DNA of 64,000 nucleotides, taken from Ramlibacter henchirensis (GTDB taxonomy: Bacteria; Pseudomonadota; Gammaproteobacteria; Burkholderiales; Burkholderiaceae_C). Shown here in pieces: positions 1,980-51,450 of this stretch. Position 1 is the first letter of the stretch. Each line of letters opens with the position of its first letter. The stretch spans positions 2,108,001-2,172,000 of the forward strand of contig NZ_SMLM01000001.1 in NCBI RefSeq assembly GCF_004682015.1, written 5' to 3'. The position numbers and the translations under genes are program-made. The notes under the pieces were generated by a model. That model saw nothing but the letters and a program-made list of their open reading frames with translations, was not told where the DNA came from and did not search any database.

Positions 1980-2105
1980 ATGCCCACTCGAAATTCCAGC
2001 GCGTCGCGCGCCTTCATCGCCTTCGCCTTCCCGGTGCTGCTGACGCCCGACTCGCTGTGGGTGACCGACTTCGGCCACGACCGGGTGTTGCGGTTCGCGC
2101 GGTGA
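1980..2105 (+). pseudogene. Relic of an NHL-repeat lipoprotein (C-terminal blade only)
   Basis: Reading from 1980, a 41-codon frame ends in VLLTPDSLWVTDFGHDRV then LRFAR and a TGA stop. This matches the last 25-30 residues of the intact propeller lipoproteins in this window, for example the endings VLLTPDALIVSDRDHHRV(LVFPR) and VLLMPDVLLVTDLQHHRV(LVFRR). The upstream PTRN also resembles the PTSRN/PTERN that precedes the last blade in the paralogs. The other five blades and the lipobox are absent; the bases back to the DUF6151 stop read as nothing recognisable. It lies directly upstream of, and in the same direction as, an intact copy, so it is most simply the remnant of a former tandem neighbour. 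Confidence 0.7.
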
Positions 2106-2197
2106 TGGGCTGCCCTGCAACCGACAAGCGGCTTACCCACTCCGCCAAACCTACAGGCCCGAACCCGCAACGCAACTCTCCTTATTGCAGCACCACC

Positions 2198-3535
2198 ATG
2201 CACATTCATGCACTTAAAGAATCTCTCACGCGCGCATCGTCCACACTCGTTCTACTCGTCTCACTGGCGGGATGCGGTGGTGGCGGCGGCTCGTCAGGAC
2301 CTGGCGCCCCTACGCCGCCGCCGAGCAATCCGCCCGTCGTGCGAACCTTCACCAGCTTCCAGGCCGCAAGCTTCGCTGTGGGTCAGCCGACGCTTGAGAC
2401 CGGCGATCCCAATCGCGGGATCGTCCCGACCGATCGCGGCCTGAGTTCGCCGGGTGCGCTGGCACCAACGCCAGAGGGAGGCCTGCTGGTCTCCGAGATC
2501 GGCAACAACCGTATCCTTCTCTTTGCAACATTGCCCGATGCTGCCGATCCGGTCGCGACGGCTGTCCTCGGACAGCGTGACTTCTTCGAATCCGCAGCTT
2601 CCGTGTCGCGGGAAGGCCTCAATGCGCCCTTCGGGATGGCCGTTGAGGTGGGCAAGATGGCTGTTGCCGACTCTGGCTCCGATCGCGTGCTGATCTACGA
2701 GCGCACCCCGTCACAAGGAGCAGCGGGGCCTTTGCCGGACGTTGTCATAGGACCGGCCGATTTCGACACAGTTGCGCCTGACTGCGCTCCGACGGGAATG
2801 CGTCGCCCGATGGGAGTGGCCATAACGCCCGAAGGGAAACTGATCGTCGCGGATTCGGGAAACAACCGCGTCCTGATCTGGGACGCGATCCCTGCAAAGA
2901 ACGAGCCCATTCCTTCACCGAAGCTGGTGCTTGGTCAGAAGGACCTGGTGCATTGCGCATCGAATGACAACGATGGGGACGGTTCGACGGACTTGGTGCC
3001 CGGGACCGCGATACCTCAGTCGACCGCCAGCACTCTCTCGTTTCCCCGCGACGTGTGGACTGACGGGCAGCGCCTGGTGATTGCCGACCAGGACAACCAC
3101 CGTGTGCTGATCTGGAACAGGTTCCCGACCCGTAGCTTCCAGGAGGCTGACATTGTGCTGGGCCATTCCGACTTCCTGAACACCGTAGCCAACAGCGAAC
3201 ACGATCCCACGTCGCCGTCGACGGCGCCCACTGCGCGGACGCTTTCCACTCCGACCGGCATTCACTCAGATGGCATCAGCCTGGTAGTCGCGGACGCCCG
3301 CAACAACAGGGTGCTCGTCTGGAACACTTTCCCCGATCACAGCTTCGCGCGCGCCGACGTCGTGCTCGGTCACGTTGATTTCGATCTGAGCGTCACGAAC
3401 GACCGGGACGGAGACGGTGTGACAGACGCGCCGACAGCAAACGTTTTCAGCTTCCCCCATCGAGTGCTGCTGATGCCCGATGTCCTGCTGGTGACTGACC
3501 TTCAGCATCATCGCGTGCTGGTCTTTCGCAGGTGA
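2198..3535 (+). CDS. NHL-repeat six-bladed beta-propeller lipoprotein (copy A)
   Basis: A 445-residue predicted lipoprotein. A short basic N-terminus and hydrophobic core lead to lipobox LAGC (Cys26), then a glycine-rich and proline-rich tether. Six repeats follow, each with a LxVADxxNNRV(L/I)xW-type strand (NNRILLF, DRVLIY, NNRVLIW, NHRVLIW, NNRVLVW, HHRVLVF), as in NHL propellers. Between blades sit Asp-rich loops such as NDNDGDGSTD and NDRDGDGVTD, resembling calcium-binding DxDxDG loops. ATG 2198 was chosen because it opens the signal peptide. It stands alone, convergent with pyrE 21 bases away. NHL propellers usually bind proteins, nucleic acids or small ligands; this one's ligand is unknown. 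Three intact paralogs lie elsewhere in the window. Confidence 0.85.
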   Translation: MHIHALKESLTRASSTLVLLVSLAGCGGGGGSSGPGAPTPPPSNPPVVRTFTSFQAASFAVGQPTLETGDPNRGIVPTDRGLSSPGALAPTPEGGLLVSEIGNNRILLFATLPDAADPVATAVLGQRDFFESAASVSREGLNAPFGMAVEVGKMAVADSGSDRVLIYERTPSQGAAGPLPDVVIGPADFDTVAPDCAPTGMRRPMGVAITPEGKLIVADSGNNRVLIWDAIPAKNEPIPSPKLVLGQKDLVHCASNDNDGDGSTDLVPGTAIPQSTASTLSFPRDVWTDGQRLVIADQDNHRVLIWNRFPTRSFQEADIVLGHSDFLNTVANSEHDPTSPSTAPTARTLSTPTGIHSDGISLVVADARNNRVLVWNTFPDHSFARADVVLGHVDFDLSVTNDRDGDGVTDAPTANVFSFPHRVLLMPDVLLVTDLQHHRVLVFRR

Positions 3536-3556
3536 TCGTAAGTCCAAACGGGGTGC

Positions 3557-4237
3557 TCACTCCACCCCGTACCGCTCCCGATACGCCAGCACCTTGGGGT
3601 AATGCTCCCCCAGCTCACCCTGGCCCTGCACCTGCAAGTACGCCAGCAGATCCGCCAGTTTCGCGATCGCGCACACCTGCAGCCCGAGCTGTTGTTGCAC
3701 GTACTGCACGGCGCTGTGGTCCACGTCGCGCCCGTCTTCGGTCGCCTTCTCCTGCCGATCAAGCGCAATCGCCACCGCGTGCGGCGTTGCGCCCGCTGCC
3801 TTGATCAACGCGATCGACTCGCGCGCGGCGGTGCCCGCCGACATCACGTCGTCGACGATCAACACACGCCCTTTCACCGGCGCGCCGACCAGGCTGCCGC
3901 CTTCCCCATGGTCCTTGGCTTCCTTGCGGTTGTACGCATACGGCACGTTGCGCCCGGCGCGCGCGAGTTCGATCGCGACGGCGGCGGCCAGCGGGATGCC
4001 CTTGTAGGCCGGCCCGAACAGCATGTCGAACTCGATCGCCGAGGCGAGGATGCGCCTTGCATAGAATTGCGCCAGCCGGCCGAGCTTGGCGCCGTCGTCG
4101 AACAGGCCGGCGTTGAAGAAGTAGGGCGACAGGCGTCCCGCCTTGGTCCTGAACTCGCCGAACCGCAGCACACCCGAATCCACCGAGAACTCAACGAAGT
4201 CCTGCGCCAGGGCATCCTGGCCAAGCGCTGCCGACAT
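3557..4237 (-). CDS. pyrE: Orotate phosphoribosyltransferase
   Basis: Converts orotate and PRPP to orotidine 5'-phosphate in de novo pyrimidine synthesis, in the cytoplasm. The 226-residue length fits the proteobacterial enzyme. Visible motifs are FGPAYKG (74-80), NRKEAKDHGEGG (103-114, the flexible catalytic loop with Lys) and the PRPP-binding stretch VLIVDDVMSAGTA (about 125-137). The start at 4237 follows an AAGGA ribosome-binding site about seven bases upstream; the frame remains open further upstream, but that part is antisense to the next gene. The start codon touches the divergent exodeoxyribonuclease start, leaving no intergenic space, so its promoter must lie inside that gene's 5' end. 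Confidence 0.95.
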   Translation of the reverse strand: MSAALGQDALAQDFVEFSVDSGVLRFGEFRTKAGRLSPYFFNAGLFDDGAKLGRLAQFYARRILASAIEFDMLFGPAYKGIPLAAAVAIELARAGRNVPYAYNRKEAKDHGEGGSLVGAPVKGRVLIVDDVMSAGTAARESIALIKAAGATPHAVAIALDRQEKATEDGRDVDHSAVQYVQQQLGLQVCAIAKLADLLAYLQVQGQGELGEHYPKVLAYRERYGVE

Positions 4238-5039
4238 GGGGAATTCCTTGTTCAAACTGACCAGCCTCAACCTGAACGGCATCCGATCCGCCGCCAGCAA
4301 GGGCGTGGAGGCATGGCTCGCGAAGGCGAAGCCGGATTGTATTTGCGTGCAGGAAGTCAAGGCCCAGGCCGAGGACGTGCAGGGCCGCTTCGACACCCTG
4401 GCCGGCCTCAAGGGCCACTTCCACTTCGCGCAGAAGAAGGGCTACTCGGGCGTGGCCGTCTACAGCCGCCATGAGCCCACCGACGTCGTCGCGGGCTTCG
4501 GCTCCGAGGAGTTCGACGCCGAGGGCCGCTATCTCGAGATGCGCTTCGACACGCCGTCGCGCAAGTTCTCGGTCATCAGCGCCTACTTCCCCAGCGGCTC
4601 CTCGGGCGAGGAGCGCCAGCAGGCCAAGTTCCGCTTCCTCGACGAGTTCGAGCCGCACATCACGCGCCTGAAGACGCAGCGCGAGTTCGTCATGTGCGGC
4701 GACGTCAACATCGCGCACAAGGAACAGGACCTGAAGAACTGGCGCAGCAACCGGAAGAACAGCGGCTTCCTGCCGGAGGAACGCGCGTGGATGACGCGCC
4801 TGCTTTCCGAACACCGCATCGTCGACGTGTACCGGCACCTGAAGCCCGACACCACCGGCGAGTCTTACACCTGGTGGAGCAACCGCGGCCAGGCCTACGC
4901 GAACAACGTGGGCTGGCGGCTGGACTACCACCTGGCCACGCCCGGCATCGGCCAGCAGGCGCGCACGGAGTCGATCTACCGGGCCGAGAAGTTCTCCGAC
5001 CACGCGCCGGTGACGGTGGAGTACGAGCTGCGGATGTAG
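4236..5039 (+). CDS. xth: Exodeoxyribonuclease III (AP endonuclease family)
   Basis: Mg-dependent exonuclease/AP endonuclease of the EEP fold, acting in base-excision repair. Motifs are SLNLNGIRSA at the N-terminus (metal/catalytic Asn), CVQEVKAQ (catalytic Glu), CGDVNIAHKEQDLKNW and the C-terminal SDHAPV (catalytic Asp-His). Length is about 267 residues, typical for the family. Two starts are possible: ATG 4236, which overlaps the pyrE start on the other strand, or TTG 4248, which has GGGGA five bases upstream and would put the initiator directly before FKLTSLNLNG, where homologs begin. The TTG may well be correct. The gene converges on the downstream methyltransferase with nine bases between stops. 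Confidence 0.93.
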   Translation: MGNSLFKLTSLNLNGIRSAASKGVEAWLAKAKPDCICVQEVKAQAEDVQGRFDTLAGLKGHFHFAQKKGYSGVAVYSRHEPTDVVAGFGSEEFDAEGRYLEMRFDTPSRKFSVISAYFPSGSSGEERQQAKFRFLDEFEPHITRLKTQREFVMCGDVNIAHKEQDLKNWRSNRKNSGFLPEERAWMTRLLSEHRIVDVYRHLKPDTTGESYTWWSNRGQAYANNVGWRLDYHLATPGIGQQARTESIYRAEKFSDHAPVTVEYELRM

Positions 5040-5048
5040 GCCGTTGCG

Positions 5049-5852
5049 TCAGGCCGGCAAAGCCCGCGCTTGCACCACCAGCCCCTGGCAGTAGCCGTCG
5101 TAGGGATCGCCGCCTTGGGCCGCCAGGCCCTGCGCGACGCGCGCGACCACCTCCTCGATGGCCAATCCCCTCGCCGCGATGAGCGCACCGCGCGGCGTGC
5201 CGCGGATCTGGCCCGATGCGATCCTACGCGGGTCGGCGCCCCGGATCGCGATGCGCCGGGTCTCGATGTGCCGCTCACCGAAACCCGCACCGGCCAGCAA
5301 GCCATCGAGCACGGCCGCATCGCACAGCTCGTACGGCGTGCGGAACCGCATCTCGGCGTCACCCGGGAACAGCGTTTCGATGATCTGCGCGAAGACCAGC
5401 GCGTGCGGGTTCTCCTCGATCCGATCCCACACGGTCAGCATCAACTGCCCGCCAGGACGCAGCACCCGACGCCATTCGCGCAGCGCCGCCGCGCGGTCGG
5501 GCAGGAACATGAGTCCCAGGCCGCAGGCGATGCCGTCGAAAGAAGCAGTCTCGAACGGCAGGCTCAGCGCGTTGGCCTCGTGCCATTCGATCGGCTCACC
5601 TTCCAGTCGCTCGCGCGCGAAGGCGAGCATTCCCGGGTTGAGATCGGTCGCGACCAGACGCGCCGTCGGCGCCATCCTGCGCCGCAACTCGCGCGTCACC
5701 AGGCCTGTGCCGCAGGCCAGCTCCAGCAGCTCACCATCGAAACCTTGCGGCAGGCAGCCGGCCAGCTCGCGCGCGAACGGCGCGAACGTGTACGGGCCGA
5801 TCTCCTCGTCGTAGGAGCGCGGGCCTGTGAAGCCAACGGAAGGGTCGAGCAT
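5049..5852 (-). CDS. Class I SAM-dependent methyltransferase
   Basis: A 267-residue methyltransferase of the UbiE/COQ5-like type (Methyltransf_11). The SAM-binding motif I, LELACGTG, spans 43-50; an acidic motif II is in VATDLNPGML, and RVLRPGGQLMLTVWD marks the post-motif region. The C-terminal third, with AIRGADPRRIASGQIRG, probably forms the substrate cap and resembles proteins often annotated simply as class I methyltransferases. ATG 5852 has GGAGG seven bases upstream; the frame continues upstream only as antisense of noncoding sequence. Substrate cannot be judged. It appears monocistronic. Confidence 0.85.
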   Translation of the reverse strand: MLDPSVGFTGPRSYDEEIGPYTFAPFARELAGCLPQGFDGELLELACGTGLVTRELRRRMAPTARLVATDLNPGMLAFARERLEGEPIEWHEANALSLPFETASFDGIACGLGLMFLPDRAAALREWRRVLRPGGQLMLTVWDRIEENPHALVFAQIIETLFPGDAEMRFRTPYELCDAAVLDGLLAGAGFGERHIETRRIAIRGADPRRIASGQIRGTPRGALIAARGLAIEEVVARVAQGLAAQGGDPYDGYCQGLVVQARALPA

Positions 5853-5911
5853 GGGGCCTCCATCGCGCAGCGTGCAGGCAACTATAAGTTCCGCGCGTCG
5901 GGCGCGGGCGG

Positions 5912-7063
5912 TTACCAGTCGACCAGGCTCACGCCGATGCTGAACATCACGCGGCGGCGGTTGTAGTCGAGCAGGGTGTCGCCATAGCCGGCGAACAGCT
6001 GCGTGTGCAGCTGCAGGCCGCTCGGGGTGCCGGTATCCCGGTCCGAGACGTCGCGGAACCACTCCAGGCGCACCGAACCGCGGCCGTCGCGCCGCAGCGA
6101 ATGCCGCGTGGTGAGCGCCCAGAGATTGCCACCGCCGGCCTGCCATTCGGCTCGCAGCTCGGCGCGGCCGTAGTAGTTCGTGATGCCCGGGTTGTCATCG
6201 TCCGCGGCGTCTTCGGGCAGGCGGCGCCACACGCGCGCGTGCAGCTGCAGCGGCCCGCGCTCGGCGCCGAGCATGAGAGAGGCGCGGTTCCAGCTGCGCG
6301 ACAGCGGCAGCGACTGGCCGTTGGAATGGTGCGTAACGGCGAGCCCGGCATAGCGCACGCGCCAGTCGCCCGGCACCGCGGACTGCAGCGGCGCGATGTA
6401 CACGATTTCGGGCTCGTGGTCGGTGCTGCGGAAGGGCCGTGACAGCGCGGGCGTGAACAGCTGCCAGTAGGACTGCTGCGAGTAGCCGAACCAGAGCGAA
6501 TCGCGCTTTTCCGGCGTGTCGATGAAGAGCCCCTGCGCGACCTTGGTCCGCACTGACAGCTGCAGCCGCAACTCGGTGGTGCGGTAGTCCTGCGCCGTCG
6601 CCGCGTTGTTGGCCGGATTGCCGGAGGTCGGCTGGCGGTTCACGGTGTTGCCCGTCACGAAACCCAGGCTGATCGGCCGATAACCGCGGATGCCGAAGTC
6701 GCCGCAGTCGGCGCCCGGCTCCAGCTCCCAGTAGCGCGACATCGTGGAATAGCGCGGGTCGCGGCAACCTTCGCGGCGCGTCAGGCGCAGGCCCAGGCGT
6801 GTGCCGGGCGCGGAGACTACCGGCGGGTCTGCGCTCGCGACAGGCGGCGGCGCTGCGGGTGGCGCCCCAGGCGCGGGGGACGGCGCGGGCGCTTGTTTCG
6901 CTTCTTCGGCGGCGCGCTGGCCTTCCGCCCAGCGGTCGAAGCACGCGAGTCGCTGGATGGGATCGTTGTGGAGGGTGCAGGCCTGCCAGGCTTCTTGCGC
7001 GTGCGCGCCGCCGGCGGCCATCAGGAGCCCGGCGAATGCCCGGGCGCGGAATGGAAACGGCAT
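5912..7063 (-). CDS. pldA: Outer-membrane phospholipase A1
   Basis: Calcium-dependent phospholipase of the outer membrane, which hydrolyses phospholipids that reach the outer leaflet. The 383-residue precursor has a signal peptide ending near GGAHAQ (about residue 23), a Pro/Ala-rich linker, then the 12-strand barrel. The catalytic motif THHSNG places His245 and Ser247, and SWNR puts Asn259 fourteen residues on, the same spacing as His142/Ser144/Asn156 in E. coli OMPLA. The last residue is Trp instead of the usual Phe, still a plausible barrel-insertion signal. The N-terminal insert between signal and barrel (residues 24-90) holds two Cys (29 and 41) and is longer than in E. coli. Neighbours are functionally unrelated. 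Confidence 0.9.
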   Translation of the reverse strand: MPFPFRARAFAGLLMAAGGAHAQEAWQACTLHNDPIQRLACFDRWAEGQRAAEEAKQAPAPSPAPGAPPAAPPPVASADPPVVSAPGTRLGLRLTRREGCRDPRYSTMSRYWELEPGADCGDFGIRGYRPISLGFVTGNTVNRQPTSGNPANNAATAQDYRTTELRLQLSVRTKVAQGLFIDTPEKRDSLWFGYSQQSYWQLFTPALSRPFRSTDHEPEIVYIAPLQSAVPGDWRVRYAGLAVTHHSNGQSLPLSRSWNRASLMLGAERGPLQLHARVWRRLPEDAADDDNPGITNYYGRAELRAEWQAGGGNLWALTTRHSLRRDGRGSVRLEWFRDVSDRDTGTPSGLQLHTQLFAGYGDTLLDYNRRRVMFSIGVSLVDW

Positions 7064-7114
7064 CCGCCGGATGCTACCGCGCCCGCATTGCGCGGCCGTT
7101 CGGCGGCTGCGCGA

Positions 7115-7536
7115 TCAGGGCAGCTTGCGCAGCACGAAGGGCAGCGTGCCGTCCCAGCCGCCTTCGCGGCGGCCGCGGATCTCCTGGCCGCAGGAGCCTT
7201 CGACCACGTCGCCGAGCCACGTCGCGTTGATCCGCAGGCCATCGGCGGATTCCTCGAGCGTGAATTCGCCTTCCTCCAGGTCCGCGGCCACCCTGGCGCG
7301 CGTGCCGTCGCGGTTGATCTCGCCGGAGAGGCTCTGCGCGTATTCGCGGTGCGGCTGCAGCAGCAGCGTGGCGCCCGGCGCCTGGCCGGCGAACTCGGCG
7401 CGCCAGAGGCCGACGAGTTGCTGCGGCGTGACCTCGGCGGGCTTCGGGCAGGACGCCTCCGCAGCCTGTGCCCCGGCCGCAAGCAGGAGCGAAACCAGGA
7501 GGGTCGGGGTGGACGCCCGGGACAGCGCAGGCGTCA

Positions 7537-7537
<1 letters not shown>
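7115..7537 (-). CDS. Small secreted protein of unknown function
   Basis: A 140-residue protein with an N-terminal signal peptide (TLLVSLLLAAGAQA, cleavage near residue 26) and a mature part with Cys30 and a second Cys near residue 116, which could form one disulfide. The mature sequence (VGLWRAEFAGQAPGATLLLQ, then EGGWDGTLPFVLRKL) looks like a small beta-sheet domain; I do not recognise the family. Its ATG overlaps the TGA of the upstream helicase gene in an ATGA junction, so it is probably translated by coupling behind the helicase. Nothing suggests a functional link with DNA unwinding. Confidence 0.7.
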
Positions 7538-9612
<2,075 letters not shown>

Positions 9613-9751
9613 CAAGGCGTGGGGGTCGAAGGGCGGCCGATGATACCGGCCGGTCCCGAGCCGGCCTGTGCATATTGCATGGGAGGGCGGCAAATCCGCG
9701 TCGGCACGGTTCGTGCGTCACGACGGCTCAGGTACCGCGACAATCCACGCC

Positions 9752-10717
9752 GTGCTCGAGATCCTGAAGATCACTTTCCCCTTCTTCGCGCTGGTCCTGT
9801 GCGGCTACCTGGCCGCCCGCGCGCGGCTGCTGCCGCTGGAAGCGATCGGGGGGCTCAACACCTTCGTGCTGTTCTTCGCGCTGCCGTGCATGCTGTATCG
9901 GTTCGGCGCGCAAACGCCGCTGGGGCAGTTGCTCGATCCGGCCGCCTTCGCCGTCTACGTGCCGTGCGCGCTGCTGATGGTGGGGGCCACCGTGTATTTC
10001 AGTCTCAACGAGCGCATCCGCTGGAACGACGCGGCGTTCGGCGCGCTGGTGGCGGCCTTCCCCAACACGGGATTCATGGGCGTGCCGCTGCTGGTGGCGC
10101 TGCTGGGCGCGAAGGCGGCGGGCCCGGCCATCCTCACCATCCTGATCGACCTGGTGATGACCAGTTCGCTGTGCATCGCGCTCTCGCGCCTGGACAGCGC
10201 GGACGAACATGGCGCCGCCATCGCGGCCCGCAAGGCGCTCAAAGGGGCGGCGACCAACCCGATGCCCTGGGCCATCGCGCTGGGCGCGCTGTCTTCGGGG
10301 TTCGGGCTCACGCCCATCGAGCCGGTGATGTCCACCCTCGGGCTGCTGGCCGACGCCGCGTCGCCCGTGGCGCTGTTCACGATCGGCGCCGTGATGGCGC
10401 GCTCGCAGCAGGTGGCCGCGGCCGGCGAGCACGAGCCGCTGCCCGCGCGGGATTTCGTGCCGGTCGCCGTGGCCAAGCTGCTGGTGCATCCGCTCGTGGT
10501 GCTGGCCGTCGGCAGCCTCGCCATCGCGTTCGGGCTCGACCTGGACCGCTTCGCGCTCACCGCCATGGTCCTGGTCGCGGCGTTGCCGAGCGCGAGCAAC
10601 GTCTCGCTGCTCGCCGAACGCTTCGGTGCGGACAACGGGCGCATCGCCCGCATCATCCTGTTGACCACCGCGGCCGCATTCCTGACCTTTTCAGGGGCGG
10701 TCGCCCTCCTGCGGTAA
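9752..10717 (+). CDS. AEC family transporter (auxin efflux carrier superfamily)
   Basis: A 321-residue inner-membrane permease with about ten hydrophobic segments in two halves of five, separated by a charged loop near residues 145-170. The sequence AAFPNTGFMGVPLL is the conserved crossover motif of bacterial AEC proteins (MdcF/YfdV type), and ALPSASNVSLLAERFG is the matching motif of the second half. Such carriers export or import small organic acids such as malonate; the substrate here is unknown. GTG 9752 gives LEILKITFPFF directly, the usual N-terminus; an ATG at 9668 would add 28 residues with no membrane character. It is divergent from rep. Confidence 0.85.
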   Translation: MLEILKITFPFFALVLCGYLAARARLLPLEAIGGLNTFVLFFALPCMLYRFGAQTPLGQLLDPAAFAVYVPCALLMVGATVYFSLNERIRWNDAAFGALVAAFPNTGFMGVPLLVALLGAKAAGPAILTILIDLVMTSSLCIALSRLDSADEHGAAIAARKALKGAATNPMPWAIALGALSSGFGLTPIEPVMSTLGLLADAASPVALFTIGAVMARSQQVAAAGEHEPLPARDFVPVAVAKLLVHPLVVLAVGSLAIAFGLDLDRFALTAMVLVAALPSASNVSLLAERFGADNGRIARIILLTTAAAFLTFSGAVALLR

Positions 10718-10883
10718 GCTTTCGCCTTCGACGGGCAGGCCACGGTCGAGTTCGCGACCGTAACCACGGGTTCCGTGGGAAAGGTCCTACGCGGCGGGCG
10801 GAATGCCTCTGGCATGCTCGCTGCCGCCTCGCAGCGGGGCAGCCGCTCCGAACTCATCCTCCGATCGCAAGAACACGCTCCTG

Positions 10884-11519
10884 ATGGCTGGTCCACAGCA
10901 GTACACGACACCGCTTGGCGCGCCCGTCGCGTCCATCAACGACACGCTGGCATCGCTGCGGCAGGCAACCGCGGGACAGCACGCACGCATCGAATCACTG
11001 GTCGGCCTCGGCGGCCCGTTCGGCCGCGGCCACTACGGCCGAGTGCTGCAGGGCTTCGGAGCCTTCCTGCACGGGTGGGAACCGGCCGTGGCCCGCACGC
11101 TGCCTCGGCAGCTGCTGCCCTGGTTCGCCCGCGGCCGCCGCGCTTTCCTCATCGACCGCGACCTCGCCGCGCTGGGCCTGCCGGCGCTCGGGCCGGAAGC
11201 GGCCGTCGTGCCGCACCTGGAAGACCGCGCCGACGCGCTCGGCTCCCTCTACGTGATGGAAGGCGCGGCGCTCGGCGGCCAGCTGATCGCGGCCAACCTC
11301 CGGCACCGCCTGCGCATCGACGCCGACAACGGCGGCGCCTATTTCAACGGCTGCGGCAGCGGCACCGCTGCGCGCTGGCGCGAGTACCGCTCGCTCGCCC
11401 AGTCGCAACTGGAGGACGACGCCCGCGCCCGGGCCCGTGCGGCCGACGCGGCCGTGCGGACCTTCGAAGCGCTGATCGCCACCTTCGAGACGCTGCTGGA
11501 TGAACGCGCTGCTGCCTGA
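10884..11519 (+). CDS. bphO: Biliverdin-producing heme oxygenase
   Basis: Cleaves heme to biliverdin IX-alpha, the chromophore of the phytochrome encoded next. The 211-residue all-helical protein has the expected proximal-His region (LRQATAGQHARIESL, His33) and the distal helix LGSLYVMEGAALGGQLI, whose glycines bend over the heme. It matches bacterial BphO/HemO proteins. ATG 10884 was preferred to an in-frame ATG at 10803, since the added residues look like translated upstream noncoding DNA. Its 3' end overlaps the bacteriophytochrome start by 20 bases, a classic bphO-bphP arrangement that implies coupled translation and a matched supply of chromophore. Confidence 0.9.
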   Translation: MAGPQQYTTPLGAPVASINDTLASLRQATAGQHARIESLVGLGGPFGRGHYGRVLQGFGAFLHGWEPAVARTLPRQLLPWFARGRRAFLIDRDLAALGLPALGPEAAVVPHLEDRADALGSLYVMEGAALGGQLIAANLRHRLRIDADNGGAYFNGCGSGTAARWREYRSLAQSQLEDDARARARAADAAVRTFEALIATFETLLDERAAA

Positions 11520-39459: not shown

Positions 39460-39460
39460 G

Positions 39461-40264: not shown

Positions 40265-40320
40265 CAGGCCCTGACGCGTGAGTGGAGATCGATTCTTCCA
40301 CAGGGCGCCACAGGCGGCTC

Positions 40321-41010: not shown

Positions 41011-41053
41011 AATCGGCCGGCGAGGATTCGTATCAAAACGTCAAGAGGGGCTC

Positions 41054-42097: not shown

Positions 42098-42125
42098 GGG
42101 GCGAGCGACAAAGGAGCGAGCACAC

Positions 42126-43262
42126 ATGGAACGCGACCAGGCCAGCAAATTCATCAACGACCTGCTCAAGCTGATGGTCAGCCGCAATGGCAGCGACTTG
42201 TTCATCACCGGCGACTTCCCGCCCGCGATCAAGGTCGACGGCAAGGTCACCAAGGTGTCGCCGCAGCCCCTGACCGGCCAGCACACGCTGGCGCTGGCGC
42301 GCTCGATCATGAACGACAAGCAGGCGTCGGAGTTCGAGCGCACCAAGGAGTGCAACTTCGCGATCTCGCCGCCGGGCATCGGCCGCTTCCGCGTCAACGC
42401 CTTCGTGCAGCAGGGCAAGGTGGGGATGGTGCTGCGGGTGATCCCGCAGATCCTGCCGACCATCGACAAGCTGGGCGTGCCGCAGGTGCTCAAGGAAGTG
42501 GTGATGGCCAAGCGCGGCCTGGTGATCCTGGTGGGCGCCACCGGCTCGGGCAAGTCGACCACGCTGGCCGCGATGATCGACTGGCGCAACGAGAACAGCT
42601 ACGGGCACATCATCACCATCGAAGACCCGGTGGAATTCGTGCATCCGCACAAGAACTGCGTGATCACGCAGCGCGAGGTGGGGCTGGACACCGACAACTG
42701 GGAAGCGGCGCTGAAGAACACGCTGCGCCAGGCGCCCGACGTGATCCTGATGGGCGAGATCCGCGACCGCGAGACGATGGAGCACGCCATCGCCTTCGCC
42801 GAAACCGGCCACCTGTGCATGGCCACGCTGCACGCCAACAGCGCCAACCAGGCGCTGGACCGCGTGATCAACTTCTTCCCCGAGGAGCGCCGCGCCCAGC
42901 TGCTGATGGACCTGTCGCTCAACCTCAAGGGCATGATCTCGCAGCGGCTGATTCCCAAGCAGGACGGCAAGGGCCGTTCCGCGGCGGTGGAGATCATGCT
43001 CAACACCCCGCTGATCAGCGACCTGATCTTCAAGGGCGAGGTGACCGAGATCAAGGAGATCATGAAGAAGAGCCGCAACCTGGGCATGCAGACGTTCGAC
43101 CAGGCGCTGTACGACCTGTACGAGAACAACGTCATCACCTACGAAGACGCGCTGCGCAACGCCGACTCGGTGAACGACCTGCGCCTGCAGATCAAGCTCA
43201 ATTCGCAGCGGGCGAAATCGCAGGACCTGTCGTCGGGCACGGAGCACCTGGCGATCGTCTGA
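42126..43262 (+). CDS. pilU: PilT-dependent retraction ATPase PilU
   Basis: Paralog of PilT that increases retraction force and depends on PilT. The 378 residues include SDLFITGDFPP, Walker A GATGSGKST near 138, the Asp box EDPVEFVHPHK, Walker B ILMGEIRDRETM and the His box FAETGHLCMATLHA. The longer C-terminal tail without an AIRNLIRE motif (residues 300-378) distinguishes it from PilT. AAAGGAGCGAGC precedes the ATG. It closes the pilT-pilU operon, followed by a strong terminator. Confidence 0.95.
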   Translation: MERDQASKFINDLLKLMVSRNGSDLFITGDFPPAIKVDGKVTKVSPQPLTGQHTLALARSIMNDKQASEFERTKECNFAISPPGIGRFRVNAFVQQGKVGMVLRVIPQILPTIDKLGVPQVLKEVVMAKRGLVILVGATGSGKSTTLAAMIDWRNENSYGHIITIEDPVEFVHPHKNCVITQREVGLDTDNWEAALKNTLRQAPDVILMGEIRDRETMEHAIAFAETGHLCMATLHANSANQALDRVINFFPEERRAQLLMDLSLNLKGMISQRLIPKQDGKGRSAAVEIMLNTPLISDLIFKGEVTEIKEIMKKSRNLGMQTFDQALYDLYENNVITYEDALRNADSVNDLRLQIKLNSQRAKSQDLSSGTEHLAIV

Positions 43263-43283
43263 AGCGACGGCCCGGACTGCCGC

Positions 43284-43310
43284 AAAGCCGGGCTCGCCCG
43301 GCTTTTTCTT
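43284..43310 (+). terminator. Rho-independent terminator of pilTU
   Basis: AAGCCGGG-ctcg-CCCGGCTT forms a perfect 8-bp GC-rich stem with a four-base loop followed by TTTCTTTT. It begins 22 bases after the pilU stop. Confidence 0.92.
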
Positions 43311-43412
43311 TTCCGGCCCCCGCTTTTGCCAGAAACGCAGCCGCTGTGCCGGCGGACGGGTTTCTCCGATCGCGGCACAGTGGACGGCCCACGAACCTGC
43401 CAGGAGAAAGCC

Positions 43413-43832
43413 ATGCCCCTCGTCCGCATCGACCTTCCCGCTTCCGCCTCCGCCACCGAAGCCGCCGCCGCATCGCGCGCCGTGCACCAGGCGCTCGTCG
43501 AGGTGTTCAGCGTGCCGCAGGACGACATGTTCCAGGTGGTCGCGCGCCGCCCGCCTGGCGAGATCGTGTGCACGCCGACATTCCTCGGCGTCGACCATTC
43601 CGACAAGGTCGCCTTCGTCCAGATCGTCTGCTCGCCGGGCCGCACGGTCGGGCTGAAGGAGGCGCTTTACGCCCGGATCGCGGAGGACGTCGCCGCCGGC
43701 GCCGGCCTGCGGCGCGAGGACGTGATCATCAACCTGCTCGAGACGGCGCGCGAGAACTGGTCGTTCGGCAACGGGCTGGCGCAGTACGCGCTGATCGACC
43801 GGCAGCCGCCCACCACGCGGGGCGGCTCCTAG
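43413..43832 (+). CDS. Tautomerase family protein
   Basis: A 139-residue member of the 4-oxalocrotonate tautomerase superfamily, long-subunit type. The mature N-terminus is Pro (MPLVRIDLP), which acts as the catalytic base after Met removal; AVHQALVEVFSVPQDDMFQVV and VIINLLETARENWSFGNGLAQY follow the pattern of malonate-semialdehyde-decarboxylase-like and related tautomerases. AGGAG lies seven bases before the ATG. The substrate is unknown. It precedes a hydroxyacid dehydrogenase gene by 32 bases, so the two may act in one small catabolic step. Confidence 0.85.
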   Translation: MPLVRIDLPASASATEAAAASRAVHQALVEVFSVPQDDMFQVVARRPPGEIVCTPTFLGVDHSDKVAFVQIVCSPGRTVGLKEALYARIAEDVAAGAGLRREDVIINLLETARENWSFGNGLAQYALIDRQPPTTRGGS

Positions 43833-43864
43833 AATCCGACGTTCCATTCCTTCGAGGACGACGA

Positions 43865-44767
43865 ATGCCGAGCACCAATCCGAAGACGTACGAACCCACC
43901 GCGCCGCGCAAGGTGGCCTTCCTGGGCCTGGGCGTGATGGGCTTCCCGATGGCGGGCCACCTCGCGCTGGCGGGGCACGACGTGACGGTCTACAACCGCA
44001 GCGCCGCCAAGGCGCAGGCCTGGACCGGCGAGTTCAAGGGGCGTTCGGCGCCGACACCGCGCGAAGCCGCGTCGGGTTGCGACATCGTGTTCTGCTGCGT
44101 GGGCAATGACGACGACCTGCGCACCGTGGTGCTGGGCGAGCAGGGCGCTTTCGCGGGCATGAAGCCCGGCACCATCTTCGTCGACCACACCACGGCCTCG
44201 GCCAACGTCGCGCGAGAGCTGTCGGAGGTGGCCAAGGGCAAGGGGCTGCAGTTCGTCGACGCGCCGGTGTCCGGCGGCCAGGCGGGCGCGCAGAACGGGA
44301 TGCTGACCGTGATGTGCGGCGGCGACGCGAAGGCGTTCGAGACCGCGCGGCCCGTCGCGATGGCCTTCTCTCGCGCCTTCACGCTGCTGGGCCCGAGCGG
44401 CGCCGGCCAGCTGGCCAAGATGGTCAACCAGATCTGCATCGCGGGCCTGGTGCAGGGCCTGTCCGAAGGCATCGCTTTCGGCATGCGCGCCGGCCTGGAC
44501 ATGGAGCAGGTGCTCGAGGTGATCGGCAAGGGCGCCGCCCAGAGCTGGCAGATGGACAACCGCGGCAAGACCATGATCGCCGGCAAGTTCGACTTCGGCT
44601 TCGCGGTGGACTGGATGCGCAAGGACCTGGGCCTGGTGCTCGACGAGGCCAAGCGCAACGGCGCGCGCCTGCCGGTGACGGCGCTGGTGGACCAGTTCTA
44701 TGCGGACGTGCAGGAGATGGGCGGGAAGCGGTGGGATACGTCGTCGCTGATCAAACGGATCAGGTGA
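43865..44767 (+). CDS. NAD(P)-dependent beta-hydroxyacid dehydrogenase (3-hydroxyisobutyrate dehydrogenase-like)
   Basis: A 300-residue enzyme of the 6-phosphogluconate/3-hydroxyisobutyrate dehydrogenase superfamily. The dinucleotide-binding motif FLGLGVMGFPMAGHL spans 19-33, the substrate loop DAPVSGGQAGAQNG lies at 132-145 and the catalytic Lys185 is in GQLAKMVNQ. The N-terminal 14 residues are a short extra tail. Related proteins reduce tartronate semialdehyde, succinic semialdehyde or 3-hydroxyisobutyrate; which applies here cannot be told. It follows the tautomerase gene and ends at a hairpin. Confidence 0.88.
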   Translation: MPSTNPKTYEPTAPRKVAFLGLGVMGFPMAGHLALAGHDVTVYNRSAAKAQAWTGEFKGRSAPTPREAASGCDIVFCCVGNDDDLRTVVLGEQGAFAGMKPGTIFVDHTTASANVARELSEVAKGKGLQFVDAPVSGGQAGAQNGMLTVMCGGDAKAFETARPVAMAFSRAFTLLGPSGAGQLAKMVNQICIAGLVQGLSEGIAFGMRAGLDMEQVLEVIGKGAAQSWQMDNRGKTMIAGKFDFGFAVDWMRKDLGLVLDEAKRNGARLPVTALVDQFYADVQEMGGKRWDTSSLIKRIR

Positions 44768-44779
44768 ACGGATGAAAGA

Positions 44780-44803
44780 CAAGGGGCCGCTAAGCGGCCC
44801 CTT
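44780..44803. terminator. Bidirectional hairpin between convergent genes
   Basis: AAGGGGCCGC-taa-GCGGCCCCTT forms a perfect 10-bp stem with a three-base loop. It lies between the stops of the hydroxyacid dehydrogenase (plus) and an NHL lipoprotein (minus), so it can serve both. Confidence 0.88.
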
Positions 44804-44837
44804 CTCCGTTGTGGCGTGCTCGCTTACGGGCTCTCGC

Positions 44838-46091
44838 TCATCGATCCAGCCGAATGATCAGCACGCGATGGTTCATCGTGTCGCTGACGAACAGCCGTTG
44901 TCCATCGAGATACACGCCACGCGGCGCCTTGAATACTGCTTCGGTAGGGGTCGGGTCCTCCGCCCCGTCTCGATTCCCGTCGTTCGGTGCACCATGTCCG
45001 GAATCGGCCTGCCCGATCACGCGATCGGGCGGGGTGCCTGAGGACGTGGGGATCGTGTTCCAGATCAGCACTCGATGGTTTCCCGTATCACCGACGGCGA
45101 GTCGTACGCCGTCCGAATGAACGGCCCTGGGAGTGTTGAAGGTGGACGCGCCAGGGGCTGCATCCTTGATTCCGTCGCCTCCCGCATCGTTCGGCGCGCT
45201 GCCTGAGAAGCTGATCTGTCCCAGTACGACGTCGGCAGGCTTGAAGCGTTCGGCGCTATCGGCCGGCATCCGATTCCAGATGAGGACACGGTGATTGAGG
45301 CTATCGGCCACGATCAGTTTCTCGCCGTCGCTCCAGAGCGCGTCCGGCTCGTTGAGGGTTTCCGCGCCGGGTCCGGCAGCGCCCGCGTTCGCGGCACAGC
45401 TGGTGAAATCGGGTTGACCCACGACCGCGTCGGCGGGCTGCAGGTCCGCTTGCGGCACATTGTTCCAAATCAGGACGCGGTGATGTTCCAGGTCGGCGAG
45501 CACCAGTTTCCCGTTGGGTGTCAGGACGGCAGACCGAGGCGCACTGAGCCCAACGCGGCTGCATCCCAAGCTGTCTTGGGCAGTTGGACTGGACTGCCCA
45601 ACGACGAACGTTGCGGGCTGTGCGTTCGACGAGGGCACTTCCGAGTAGATCAAGACGCGGTTCGCAAAGCGATCAGCGACAGCCATCTTGCCCTTGGCGA
45701 TCGAGACGGAGTAGGGTGAGTTGAAATCAGTCTTGGAGACGGTCCCGCTTGTCGGGGCAAACAGATTCAATTTGCCGATCACGAAGTCCGCGGGCGCATT
45801 GTTCTGTTCAGGCACTTTGCGGTAGCCGAGGACGCGACCATTCAACGTATCCGGAACAAACAATGTCCCGCTTTCCGAAAGCGTGACGTTCCCAATCGGG
45901 TTGTCCAGCGTGTTGTCCGCAACGGCGCCTCCCTGGTTGCTCTGATTGGCCTGGAATGAAGCTTGGCCTAGGACGGTGACGGCCGGGATGGTGGGCGCTT
46001 CCCCACCTCCACCACCACCGCAGGCTGCAATACCCGCCAACGTGCAAGAGATCGTGATGGCTCGCAGTTGCAAGTGTCTGGTCATGAACAT
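44838..46091 (-). CDS. NHL-repeat six-bladed beta-propeller lipoprotein (copy B)
   Basis: A 417-residue predicted lipoprotein, the most divergent of the four. Signal peptide with lipobox IAAC (Cys24) and a run of Gly follow. Six blades end in GRVLGY, NRVLIY, HHRVLIW, NHRVLIW, NHRVLIW and NHRVLII. Asp-rich loops NDAGGDGIKD and NDGNRDGAED occupy the same inter-blade sites as in copies A, C and D. Unlike the others, it lacks the FQAAS-type opening segment and starts its first blade directly after the Gly tether with TVLGQASFQ. It is monocistronic between two hairpins, flanked by unrelated enzyme genes and the dolP operon. Confidence 0.83.
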   Translation of the reverse strand: MFMTRHLQLRAITISCTLAGIAACGGGGGGEAPTIPAVTVLGQASFQANQSNQGGAVADNTLDNPIGNVTLSESGTLFVPDTLNGRVLGYRKVPEQNNAPADFVIGKLNLFAPTSGTVSKTDFNSPYSVSIAKGKMAVADRFANRVLIYSEVPSSNAQPATFVVGQSSPTAQDSLGCSRVGLSAPRSAVLTPNGKLVLADLEHHRVLIWNNVPQADLQPADAVVGQPDFTSCAANAGAAGPGAETLNEPDALWSDGEKLIVADSLNHRVLIWNRMPADSAERFKPADVVLGQISFSGSAPNDAGGDGIKDAAPGASTFNTPRAVHSDGVRLAVGDTGNHRVLIWNTIPTSSGTPPDRVIGQADSGHGAPNDGNRDGAEDPTPTEAVFKAPRGVYLDGQRLFVSDTMNHRVLIIRLDR

Positions 46092-46202
46092 GTGCTCCTC
46101 GGTTCCATGAAGGCGTCGAGGTTTTCACATGCTTCTCCTCTGGTCGAGCCACTTAGGTCATTGGTTCCGTCCGTGCACGTCGTGCTGGAACTGAAACGAT
46201 GA

Positions 46203-46220
46203 GGGCCGCGAAAGCGGCCC
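46203..46220. terminator. Hairpin downstream of dolP
   Basis: GGGCCGC-gaaa-GCGGCCC is a perfect 7-bp stem with a tetraloop, 28 bases beyond the dolP stop on the minus strand. There is no T-run, so termination is probable but not certain. The rest of the 156-base gap before copy B holds no other feature I can support. Confidence 0.65.
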
Positions 46221-46247
46221 CTTGTCCTTGGCGTGGCGCGCTGACGC

Positions 46248-47902
<1,655 letters not shown>

Positions 47903-47915
<13 letters not shown>

Positions 47916-48835
47916 TGCCTGCCAGCGCCTCCTCATTCGCCGCCGCGCTGAACGCCGCCCGCGACGCCGCCGGTGCGCAGGATTATCCGAAGGGTGCGCT
48001 GTATGTCGTTGCCACGCCCATCGGCAACCTGGCGGATATCAGCCTGCGCGCCCTGCATGTGCTGGAGCTGGCGGACCGCATCGCGTGCGAGGACACGCGT
48101 CACACGCAGGCGCTGCTACGCGCGTACTGCATCGATCGCGCGGGCGACCGGCTGCTGGCGCTGCACCAGCACAACGAGTCCGAAGCCGCCGCGCGGGTGA
48201 TCGGCTGGCTGGGCGCGGGTGAGCGTGTTGCTTATGCGAGCGATGCGGGCACGCCGGCCGTCAGCGACCCCGGTGCGCGGCTTGTCGCTGCGGTCCGCGA
48301 AGCGGGGCATCGGGTCGTGCCGTTGCCGGGCGCGAGCAGCATCACCACGCTTCTGAGCGCCGCGGGCAGCACGCGCGAGGGCGGGTTCGTCTTTGCCGGG
48401 TTCCTTCCGGTGAAGGCGGGCGAGCGCGAGGCCGCCGTCGCGCAGCTCGCGGCCGAGCCTCGCGCGGTGGTCCTGCTCGAAGCGCCGCATCGCATCGAGG
48501 CCCTGGCTCGATCGCTCGCTGCGTTGGGCGATCGGGTGATGACGGTGGGCCGCGAGCTCACCAAGCAGTTCGAGGAGATCGCCACCCTGCCTTGTTCGGC
48601 GCTGGGCGGCTGGCTGGCGGCGGACGCGCAGCGCTCGCGCGGCGAGTTCGCCCTGGTCCTGCACGGGGTTGCCGAAGCTGCGCACCAGGACGATGGCGAG
48701 CGCGTATTGCGCCTGCTGCTGCCGGAGCTGCCGGTGAAGACCGCGGTGAAGCTGGCCGCGGAGATCACCGGCGCGCCGCGCAACGCACTGTATGAAGCTG
48801 CGCTCCGGCTGAAAAACGAGAGCGCCGGCGATTAG
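47903..48835 (+). CDS. rsmI: 16S rRNA (cytidine(1402)-2'-O)-methyltransferase
   Basis: Methylates the ribose of C1402 in 16S rRNA at the decoding centre. The 310-residue tetrapyrrole-methylase-fold protein has [62 protein letters not shown] and [12 protein letters not shown], all RsmI signatures. It starts with GTG 47903, overlapping the divergent yraN start by 13 bases. In E. coli rsmI also faces the lpoA-yraN-diaA-dolP group; lpoA is missing here. The stop is followed by the convergent lipoprotein gene 21 bases on. Confidence 0.95.
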
Positions 48836-48856
48836 GTTAAGTCGCCGCTGCTCCGC

Positions 48857-50152
48857 TCATTGCTTGCGGAATACCATGACCCGGTTGAAGGCACCGTCGG
48901 AGACGAGCAGCGAATCGGCGGTCATCAGCACGCGGTTCGGAGCGCCGAAGTTGCGTTCCGTCGGCATATCGGCGATGCCGTCGAGGTTGGTGTCGGTGAT
49001 GACGACCTGGTCGAAACCGGGCTGCCCCAGCACCACGTCTGCCGAAGCGGAATTCGCGCTCGGGAAGGTGTTCCAGATCAAAGCGCGATGGTTGCCCACG
49101 TCGGCCACGGCCAGGCTGGTGCCATCGGAGTGGACGCCTGACGGGTGGTGCAAGGTCCGGGCCGTCGGAGTGGCCCCGCCGGCGCGGTCCCCATCGTTCT
49201 GTCGCGTGTTCGAGAAGTCGGAATGCCCGAGGACGATGTTTGCCGGCTGGAAGCTGTCGCTGGGGAACGAGGTCCAGATCAGCACACGGTTGTTCAGCGC
49301 GTCGGACACGACGAGCCGGCGGCCATCGCTCCACACATCTCTCGGTGACATCAGGGTCCTGGCCGTCGCGATGGGCATCCCGAGGGAAGTGTCCGGCGTT
49401 CCGTCCTGCAGGTCGTCGTTGGGGACGCAGTGGGCCTTGGTGGCCTGGCCCAGCACCAGGTCCGGGTCGGGCGCCGGCATGGTCTCGGGGACTTGCTTCC
49501 AGACCAGGACCCGATGGTTGTTGGTATCCACGACGATCAACTGTCCGAGCGGCGTGATGATCACGCCGTTGGGCCCGTCCATGCCGTTGGCTGCACAGGC
49601 CGGCGCGGAATCATCGAAACCGGTCTGGCCCAGCACGACCTTGGCGGCCGGCATGGTGCCCTCGAGTGGCATCTGGTCGAAGATCAGCACGCGGTTCGAA
49701 CCCCAGTCCGCGACAGCGATCTTTCCGTGGCCGACGGCAACGCCGGCGGGCCTGTCCAGGCGCTTGTCGGAAACGAATGGCAGCCCGGCCTGCAGGCTCG
49801 ACTGGCCCAGGGCGGCCTTCGCACTTGCACCGGAGACTTCGGGCAGCGCATCGAAGAGCAGCACGCGGTGGTTGCCGGAATCGGATACGAGCAGCTGGCC
49901 CTGCGGCGCCAGGATCATCGCCCCGGGCGTGGACAGGCCGTGAGGGCTCGTGGATCCGCCCTGGTTCGGCTCACCGCTCGTGGCATCGGGCTGTCCGATC
50001 ACCACGCTGGCGGCCTGGAAGTTGGTGAAGTGGCGCGCGACGGGCGGGGGCGAGCTGCTCCCGCCGCCACAAGCGAGCAGGAGCAGAGCAGACGCGAGTG
50101 CAACGCAGGCGCGAATCGCGGGAAAAGTCATGGCTGAAGCTGCGAAGGCCAT
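48857..50152 (-). CDS. NHL-repeat six-bladed beta-propeller lipoprotein (copy C)
   Basis: A 431-residue predicted lipoprotein; lipobox LLAC (Cys28) and a short GGGSSSPPP tether. Six blades end in NHRVLLF, NRVLIF, NHRVLVW, NNRVLIW, NHRALIW and NRVMVF. Asp-rich loops NDDLQDGTPD and TDTNLDGIAD lie between blades. The opening segment FTNFQAASVVIGQP is almost the same as FTSFQAASFAVGQP of copy A, so these two are probably closest. ATG 50152 has GAGG eight bases upstream; ATG or GTG codons 6-9 bases earlier overlap the stop of copy D and would also work. It is the second gene of a tandem pair and probably translated by coupling. Confidence 0.84.
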   Translation of the reverse strand: MAFAASAMTFPAIRACVALASALLLLACGGGSSSPPPVARHFTNFQAASVVIGQPDATSGEPNQGGSTSPHGLSTPGAMILAPQGQLLVSDSGNHRVLLFDALPEVSGASAKAALGQSSLQAGLPFVSDKRLDRPAGVAVGHGKIAVADWGSNRVLIFDQMPLEGTMPAAKVVLGQTGFDDSAPACAANGMDGPNGVIITPLGQLIVVDTNNHRVLVWKQVPETMPAPDPDLVLGQATKAHCVPNDDLQDGTPDTSLGMPIATARTLMSPRDVWSDGRRLVVSDALNNRVLIWTSFPSDSFQPANIVLGHSDFSNTRQNDGDRAGGATPTARTLHHPSGVHSDGTSLAVADVGNHRALIWNTFPSANSASADVVLGQPGFDQVVITDTNLDGIADMPTERNFGAPNRVLMTADSLLVSDGAFNRVMVFRKQ

Positions 50153-50157
50153 CGTCA

Positions 50158-51450
50158 TCACCTCGGAAACACCAGCACCCGGTGGTGGTCCCGGTCGGAC
50201 ACGATCAGCGCGTCGGGCGTGAGCAGGACGCCGGCAGGCGCGAACAGATTGCGGGAGGTCGGAGCATCGGGATCGCCGTCTCCGTCTTCGTCGACCGTGA
50301 CCCTCCGGTCGAACGTTTCATGACCGATCACCACGTCGGCGGCCTGGAAGCTGGCCGGAGGGAAGGTGTTCCAGATCAGGACACGGTTGTTGCTGACATC
50401 GCCGACCGCAAGGCTGTTTCCGTCCGAGTGGAGGCCCGTAGGACCCCACAGCGTGCGGGCGGTCGGTTTCTCAAGTTGTCCCTGACCGTCGTGTTCGCTG
50501 TTGGGCGTCGTGTTCGTGAAGGTGGAGTGGCCCAGCACCACTTCAGCCGCCTGGAAGTTGTCTCTCGGGAACGTGCGCCAGATCAGCACCCGCGAGTTGA
50601 GGGTGTCCGACACCGCGAGTTGCTGTCCATTGCTCCAGACGCCAAGAGGGAAAAAGAGTGTCCTCTCGTTGGGGCTGCTTCTCCCTGCGTTCGGTTCGCA
50701 GCTGCGGTCGTTCTCCTGGCCCAGCACCAAGCTCGGGGCCGGAGCAGTCCCCGGCTCCGGAATGGAGTCCCAGATCAACACTCGGCTGTTGAACGTGTCG
50801 GCGATGATCAATTTGCCATCCGGCGTGATCACGACGGATTCGGGTTGGTTCAACCCGAACGGTGCGCAGTCCGGTGTCGACGAAGTGAAACCCTGCTGGC
50901 CGATGACGACGTTCGGGATGGGTGCGAAGCCTTCCTCGGGAATTTGGGGGTAGATGAGGACGCGATTGGATTTCCTGTCGGCGACGGCCAGCTTCCCGTC
51001 TCCGACCGACAGCCCCCGCGGGTTGTTCAAACGCGTCTGGGTCACGGCGAAGCCGTCACTTTCCATGTTGGGCTGGCCGAGAACCAGCTTCGCGTCTGAT
51101 CCGGAGATGTGGGGCGGGGTGAAGAGAAGGACACGGTTGTTGCCGTTGTCGGCGATGAGCAGATCGCCGCTTGGAGTGAGAGCGAGGGCTCTTGGATTGG
51201 CCAGCCCGCCCGCACTCACGCGCAGTCCTCGGTTGCGCTCCGCGCTTTCGAAATTCGGCTGTCCGAGCACCACGGCCGCGGTCGCGAAAGTCTCTGGCCC
51301 GCGAACGACGGGGGGCAGCGGTGGCGGCTGCGGCGGATCGATGGGCGTTCCGCCACCGCCTCCCCCGCCGCCGCAGGCGGTGATGAGAAACGACAACGCA
51401 AGCGCGCTGCAGGCAGGCGTGGCAAGAGGGTTGGGCTTTCGCAGGTTCAT
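50158..51450 (-). CDS. NHL-repeat six-bladed beta-propeller lipoprotein (copy D)
   Basis: A 430-residue predicted lipoprotein; lipobox ITAC (Cys26), then eight Gly and a Pro-rich tether. Blades end in NNRVLLF, NRVLIY, SRVLIW, SRVLIW, NNRVLIW and HHRVLVF. It carries the clearest calcium-like loop of the family, DEDGDGDPDAPT, plus NSEHDGQG. Its last 30 residues are the nearest match to the relic at 1980-2105. ATG 51450 gives the signal peptide directly; a GTG 30 bases upstream is less likely. It heads a two-gene unit with copy C. The 130 bases between it and the priA stop show no clear terminator. Confidence 0.84.
   Translation of the reverse strand: MNLRKPNPLATPACSALALSFLITACGGGGGGGGTPIDPPQPPPLPPVVRGPETFATAAVVLGQPNFESAERNRGLRVSAGGLANPRALALTPSGDLLIADNGNNRVLLFTPPHISGSDAKLVLGQPNMESDGFAVTQTRLNNPRGLSVGDGKLAVADRKSNRVLIYPQIPEEGFAPIPNVVIGQQGFTSSTPDCAPFGLNQPESVVITPDGKLIIADTFNSRVLIWDSIPEPGTAPAPSLVLGQENDRSCEPNAGRSSPNERTLFFPLGVWSNGQQLAVSDTLNSRVLIWRTFPRDNFQAAEVVLGHSTFTNTTPNSEHDGQGQLEKPTARTLWGPTGLHSDGNSLAVGDVSNNRVLIWNTFPPASFQAADVVIGHETFDRRVTVDEDGDGDPDAPTSRNLFAPAGVLLTPDALIVSDRDHHRVLVFPR

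Follow-up and report, generated by a model that had tools for sequence, protein, structure and literature searches.

Diversity-generating retroelement systems combine a target with one short variable repeat, a template and a reverse transcriptase. Variable propellers have been described in fungi: an extract of the work on het-d/het-e of Podospora describes selected pairs that flank a conserved residue on the propeller's top face, in its d-a loop and its b-c turn (PMC1805685). For animal NHL propellers, an extract of the LIN-41 structure paper lists 14 residues with a role in RNA contact or in stacking at the binding site (PMC5908797), and an extract of PMC3482391 states that no polymorphic-toxin immunity protein with a propeller domain had so far been found. 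Among bacterial NHL repeat proteins, many have no functional name. Here we describe a family of NHL-propeller lipoproteins encoded within 64,000 nt of the Ramlibacter henchirensis genome (contig NZ_SMLM01000001.1, positions 2,108,001 to 2,172,000; hereafter the window) and report that these proteins are hypervariable at a ring of positions that are ligand contacts in an animal NHL protein.

The window carries four intact genes: W1 (2198..3535, plus strand, 445 aa, lipobox LAGC and six blades), W2 (44838..46091, minus strand, 417 aa), W3 (48857..50158, minus strand; alternatively 48857-50152, the frame being open to a GTG at 50161) and W4 (50158..51450, minus strand, frame open to 51480). W3 has its ATG at 50158, where it overlaps the W4 stop codon. 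A first-pass annotation of the window had recognized these genes and a relic as one family with a lipobox, a tether and six NHL units, and this description holds. The hypervariable ring is a new finding that goes beyond it.

A hypervariable ring in the propellers

Six Pro/Asp anchor pairs can be placed in the sequence, and we defined the ring as 30 positions, namely P-2, P-1 and P+1 (D-A loop) and D+1 and D+2 (B-C loop) of each blade. W4 serves as the reference; along its 440-residue product from 51480 the anchors are Pro 96, 154, 213, 278, 347 and 415 and Asp 111, 168, 228, 292, 361 and 429. Alignment A4 holds 67 of 124 proteins, chosen by length, and includes several proteins of the source genome. 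The blade anchors (Pro, Asp, Arg, Trp and Gly-Gln) are kept in A4. Entropy is 3.38 bits in the 18 D-A columns and 3.15 bits in the 12 B-C columns, compared with 1.61 bits in the other propeller columns (p 1e-16). Ring columns account for 17 of the 30 most variable among 366 columns; with automatic motif calling they account for 14 of 30, the ring being 8.9% of all columns. Among the 55 A4 members with a lipobox-like start, identity is 0.12 in the ring and 0.51 elsewhere.

The same pattern is seen between close relatives. P0031 and P0034 are identical at 19/30 ring positions and 312/339 others; the corresponding figures are 16/30 and 277/335 for P0084 and P0112, and 8/30 and 232/338 for P0106 and P0109. 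In five gene pairs between the source genome and the genome of Ramlibacter sp. Leaf400, ring identity is 0.34 and identity elsewhere 0.61, and the lowest value among 2000 random sets of 30 positions was 0.41. Paralogues within each genome are 0.10-0.18 identical in the ring and 0.50-0.55 identical in the rest. The ring is also more variable than the rest in clade B, a set of 46 other proteins taken from P0127-P0199 by length and lipobox (2.80 vs 1.55 bits, p 8e-8). Automatic motif calling, used for this set and for the control set below, produced a few false motifs, such as that at clade-B column 286.

As a control we used 23 relatives from Nitrospinota and Nitrospirae. In this set the ring varies less than the other columns do (ratio 0.56), and none of the 30 most variable columns belongs to it. 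These proteins form a closer-knit set (69% identity), so the control shows the direction of the difference and not its size.

The ring positions can be compared with the LIN-41 contacts. Zebrafish numbering was transferred to a TRIM71 chain by one chosen offset, at which 12/12 residue letters agree, and two of the 14 contacts named in the extract were left out. All 12 placeable RNA contacts fall on P-2, P-1, P+1, D+1 or D+2 positions. By this homology, we infer that the ring lines the upper mouth of the propeller, on one face. In the Pizza6-SH chain, Ser and His alternate at P+1 and a His stands at D+1; to judge from the name of the protein, these would be its designed sites. The positions through which an animal NHL protein touches its ligand are the hypervariable ones in this multi-copy family of bacterial lipoproteins, which names the residues concerned and makes the question of function concrete.

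Lipoprotein and propeller features

In each of W1-W4 a lipobox, in which GC or AC leads into poly-Gly, is followed by a short tether and then by six NHL-type units. All four match Pfam NHL (PF01436) at 59-95 bits, against a cut-off of 20, and when five members were scanned with Pfam no other family exceeded its cut-off. An NCBIfam scan of the four window proteins gave no family above its cut-off, and no defence or phage family matched them. W2-W4 are 39-51% identical to the W1 protein. The body of each protein should be a six-bladed NHL propeller in which the first VLGQ strand closes the last blade.

The lipobox pattern is present in 51/67 A4 members, and the residue after the Cys is Gly in 39 and Asp in none. 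Because a signal peptide is followed by a lipobox with a residue other than Asp after the Cys, the propellers should be sorted to the outer membrane. The tether is 18-55 residues long. Exactly two Cys lie beyond residue 45 in 61/67 proteins, and both members of a Cys pair in the loops that lead into blades 3 and 4 (205/261 of P0005) are likewise kept in 61/67; the pair is a probable disulfide. Calcium-type motifs of inter-blade loops (DxDxDG, loose pattern) occur in 53/67 proteins, with 82 motifs compared with a mean of 5 in shuffled sequences. All four window proteins have them, and none of six other paralogues of the source genome tested does.

Proposed function and alternatives

We lean slightly towards the reading that the genes encode a lipid-anchored recognition repertoire, in which the NHL frame is kept, the ring changes freely and each copy has its own partner. 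The signal peptide and lipobox would send each propeller to the outer membrane on its tether. The frame would be maintained, with some five positions per blade (P-2, P-1, P+1, D+1 and D+2) free to change, so that each copy would probably bind a different partner, either outside the cell or in the periplasm. Copy-specific partners are proposed because the ring positions line the propeller mouth and touch the ligand in an NHL protein whose structure has been solved. The set would be renewed as genes arise, disperse and are lost. The first-pass annotation had suggested ligand sensors or contact proteins; the ring lends support to this, with the location outside the cell and the ligand standing as predictions.

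Several observations weigh against a recognition repertoire. In the five source/Leaf400 pairs, nonsynonymous change in the ring (pN 0.46) is not above synonymous change (pS 0.57, near saturation, with a pS of 0.58 in the rest), and these values do not establish positive selection (omega >1). The other 13 of the 30 most variable A4 columns fall in other loops. The ring changes little or no faster than the rest between W1 and P0044 (0.73 and 0.69 identity) and between 103a and P0021 (0.65 and 0.70), and five relatives without this lipobox likewise vary more in the ring (0.48) than elsewhere (0.64). In clade B, 7 of the 30 most variable columns belong to the ring, anchors were found in the last four blades only and the Tyr/Trp excess of the A4 ring (below) is absent. 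Finally, no partner or effector gene was found beside the copies in eight stretches of the source genome.

Some of these points would also fit relaxed constraint, by which the genes encode dispensable lipoproteins in decay and the ring consists of the most tolerant exposed sites. The ring pN lies below pS and several other loop columns are equally variable. The relic, one frame-broken copy in the source genome and one copy with an internal stop in Leaf400 point the same way, as does the lack of any member at E 1e-20 in 55 of 60 genomes of the genus. Against decay of this kind stands the retention of the scaffold anchors (the Gly-Gln, Arg, Asp and Trp columns and the Cys pair), and in the Nitrospinota relatives, a closer-knit set, conservation is higher in the ring than outside it. 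Additionally, the A4 ring is rich in large residues of a binding type: compared with other variable columns it is enriched in Trp (10-fold), Tyr (9-fold), Phe, Asn and Arg, although the Tyr/Trp excess is not repeated in clade B. We regard relaxed constraint as unlikely, while giving it real weight.

The propellers might instead be periplasmic scaffolds or folding aids, with copy-specific partners inside the cell and no surface receptor set. A lipobox implies sorting to the outer membrane only and not exposure on the outside, which leaves room for this possibility. In addition, a gene family lies near the NHL gene in 26/28 Nitrospinota/Nitrospirae loci, and the one member tested combines an ethylbenzene-dehydrogenase domain with two cytochrome c domains. 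The copies in the stretches of the source genome, however, have no conserved neighbour, and housekeeping partners would presumably not require a hypervariable face. We consider a scaffold role improbable. That the genes encode lactonase-like or lyase-like enzymes with changing substrates is very unlikely, since some public entries do bear the name 'sugar lactone lactonase YvrE' but Pfam Lactonase was found in only one of the four window proteins, at 12.8 bits against a cut-off of 21.7, and no ring column is conserved in A4, unlike an active site.

A recognition repertoire could be read more narrowly as a germ-line-encoded set of outer-membrane NHL proteins that recognize ligands of non-self, kin or phage-like origin. 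Some 30 ring residues on one face would be diversified from gene to gene while the scaffold stays fixed, and the set would be the bacterial equivalent of the fungal HNWD proteins, made from another family of propellers. We offer this only tentatively and would sooner expect it to fail than to hold.

Copy number, distribution and history

The source genome (4.79 Mb, six contigs) has 11 family members at nine places: W1, W2, the W3-W4 pair, the loci L055, L056, L057 and L058, a tandem pair at L059, and L060. The L060 copy is the frame-broken one. Members were found at E 1e-20 in five of the 60 genomes of the genus; the source and Leaf400 have 11 genes each, one of them broken in either genome, and three others have one match. 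In the wider family, 3/299 genomes match, the source included and the other two weakly (five candidates scored per genome), and in the class 9/369 match, again with the source included (four candidates scored per genome). Alcanivorax nanhaiticus has one match, and Hyalangium versicolor has three matches near one another and three within one long frame. Relatives of this NHL type number 2914 among 8000 scored candidates, and 37 named loci of relatives span several phyla. This suggests an old fold with local dispersal.

These counts refine the earlier picture. The family had been called dispersing, which is borne out by 11 genes at nine places and by sites that are empty in Leaf400 (below); the relic and the broken copy in each of the two genomes support gene loss as well as birth. 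It had also been called lineage-specific; this applies to the multi-copy state, seen in only two of the 60 genus genomes, and not to the NHL relatives, which are widespread. Many paralogues restricted to one clade had been named as a sign of an expanding family: the paralogues are there, but the relatives extend across phyla. No published description of the family was found in the titles and abstract beginnings of the open-licence PMC literature, outside which most subscription papers lie. L017/L061 was rejected as a family member, being a different, lactonase-like lipoprotein.

Five places (W1, L056, L057, L059 and L060) are syntenic in Leaf400, which suggests that much of the spread predates the split between the two genomes. 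The propellers at these places are 47-60% identical; for nine flanking genes, compared codon by codon, identity is 80-94%. The pS of the flanking genes is 0.22-0.39; the copies may be older than the species split, or the flanking genes may be under stronger codon constraint. A quick tree of 54 chosen rows, with 17 of 51 branches starred, pairs L056 with L106, L057 with L104, L058 with L107, L059b with L108 and L060 with L110, and places W1, W3, W4 and L055 in a clade with three Leaf400 gatB-pyrE copies and unnamed database proteins. These three Leaf400 copies lie between gatB and pyrE at L103:6007-7500; one is on the opposite strand and is split by an in-frame stop.

The L058 copy carries extra N-terminal domains. 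It is paired with L107, and such domains are present in both genomes (L058:5180-7207 and L107:6537-8225). The stretches analysed around them share no neighbour ORF (open reading frame) at >=45% identity, and because of this the two copies look as if they had moved.

The relic of a tandem paralogue lies at 1980..2105 on the plus strand, just before W1, and joins a short start to the final strands of blade 6. The C-termini of W1 and a Leaf400 copy match its last 27 residues at 62%. The BLOSUM score of 79 exceeds the maximum of 46 in 500 shuffles and of 51 in 2000 random window pieces, so the relic is real, as first annotated. The sequence before the match is weakly similar (E 2.6e-4) to the L055 copy at its start and in its upstream part, and for this reason the relic may be an internal deletion rather than a mere tail.

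Neighbours and insertion sites

The gene orders are gatB-DUF6151-[W1]-pyrE, hydroxyisobutyrate-type dehydrogenase-[W2]-BON protein and rsmI-[W3, W4]-priA. The housekeeping neighbours are therefore as previously annotated, and the claim that the copies have no shared neighbour also stands: across the eight stretches of the source genome, one of which holds W2, W3 and W4, no common neighbour family was found. The only match between neighbours outside the family pairs one unidentified L055 ORF with an ORF in L056 and another in L058 (31-32%). The ORFs adjoining W2 are 43868-44767 (plus strand) and 46248-46859 (minus strand), both with family matches; two others, 43829-44782 and 46153-46893 (both minus strand), were dropped as neighbours for want of a family match. 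No tRNA gene adjoins the copies in six stretches of the source genome, and in the window, which was covered by Rfam alone, there was no match. The GC content of the four window genes is 62-67%, compared with 69% for the window.

In Leaf400 the two sites that hold W2, W3 and W4 here are empty. At the W2 site the gap in Leaf400 is <140 bp (an upper bound only), and G034 also lacks a gene there. The rsmI-priA gap without genes, measured from alignment ends, is ~44 bp in Leaf400, ~141 bp in G057, ~61 bp in G009 and ~31 bp in G034. The simplest reading is that the three genes were inserted in the source lineage. No target-site duplication was seen in the stretches inspected. Terminator-like hairpins bracket W2, one at 44775..44807 and one at 46195..46227, which are 73% alike; at the empty W2 site of Leaf400 one such hairpin was seen. 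The pair may be only W2's own terminator.

Upstream blocks

Upstream blocks begin 74-99 nt before the start codon and are alike within subfamilies. A 62-nt block, GTGACYT-N4-CCTTGG ... GTGAC ... AGCAT, is common to the clade-B copies and weaker in L057 and L104. It lies at L056:7425-7486, L059:5165-5226, L059:6596-6657, L060:5449-5510 and L057:6885-6946, and also in L104, L106 and L108-L111. Elsewhere in the source and Leaf400 genomes there is no match better than E 0.17. A model built from 11 blocks (nine clade B, L057 and L104), with 150 of 2292-2773 candidates scored per genome, recovers all 11 of these in the two genomes; beyond them, nothing in seven genomes matches better than E 0.095, and the model matches no clade-A, W2, 105, L058 or 107 block.

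Support from a leave-out matrix extends to L058 and 107 (p 0.005) and to the block of W4 (51475..51536, minus strand; p 0.025 against the clade-B matrix). The relic, L055, W2, 103a, 103b, 103c and 105 are unsupported (p 0.09-0.41). Among these, the block upstream of the relic (1893..1954, plus strand) is alike in clade-A copies, with a leave-clade-out p of 0.23, which is not significant; this block may still serve W1. A motif sampler run on 21 upstream regions, excluding W1, W3, G27 and G48, reached 17.2 bits compared with 12.1-12.4 in four mononucleotide-shuffled controls; its rows are dependent, as they include orthologous pairs and the overlapping 103a/103b region. RNA searches found no known leader in the window and no common fold of the upstream blocks. 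As the leave-out support is partial and the sampler rows are dependent, we claim a conserved upstream block within subfamilies only, and not as one element for all copies.

Comparison with known systems

For the NHL proteins ScyD/ScyE and ScyF, NCBIfam gives weak matches: two of the four window proteins score 25-33 bits for ScyE and three score 11-19 bits for ScyF, which is far short of the cut-offs of 80 and 350. The Nitrospinota/Nitrospirae loci (L022-L054, e.g. L051:3524-7383) encode a VLGQ-type NHL protein that shares the long VLGQ-type unit with our proteins (32% identity in one example); it differs in that its consensus lacks a lipobox, its ring is conserved and its neighbours are conserved. 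Among these neighbours, for which ORFs were chosen by length, a conserved 179-residue protein occurs in 22 loci. A link to cytochrome nanowires was considered, but no search here supported it, and it was set aside. In comparison with the targets of diversity-generating retroelements, the variable positions here are spread over all six blades.

The TRIM-NHL proteins (LIN-41/TRIM71) resemble the present family in having a six-bladed NHL propeller and, as far as the extract shows, ligand contacts at the same P and D positions. They differ in being animal proteins with an RNA ligand, an adjoining filamin domain and no lipobox, and they do not form a diversified family within one bacterial genome.

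Closest in layout are the HNWD proteins, het-d and het-e among them. The extract describes paired diversifying positions in the d-a loop and the b-c turn (PMC1805685), as in the ring; the top face is assigned here through homology to LIN41, from sequence alone. By the same extract, HNWD proteins carry WD40 repeats with NACHT and HET domains, whereas here only NHL is above the Pfam cut-off, and HNWD repeats are exchanged between genes, whereas here only 1/1134 blade comparisons was above z 3, so that no blade exchange was seen. The best reading is that the layout is like that of the fungal HNWD propellers but in an unrelated protein family. If the ring is under diversifying selection, bacteria would have a propeller-based recognition repertoire as fungi do.

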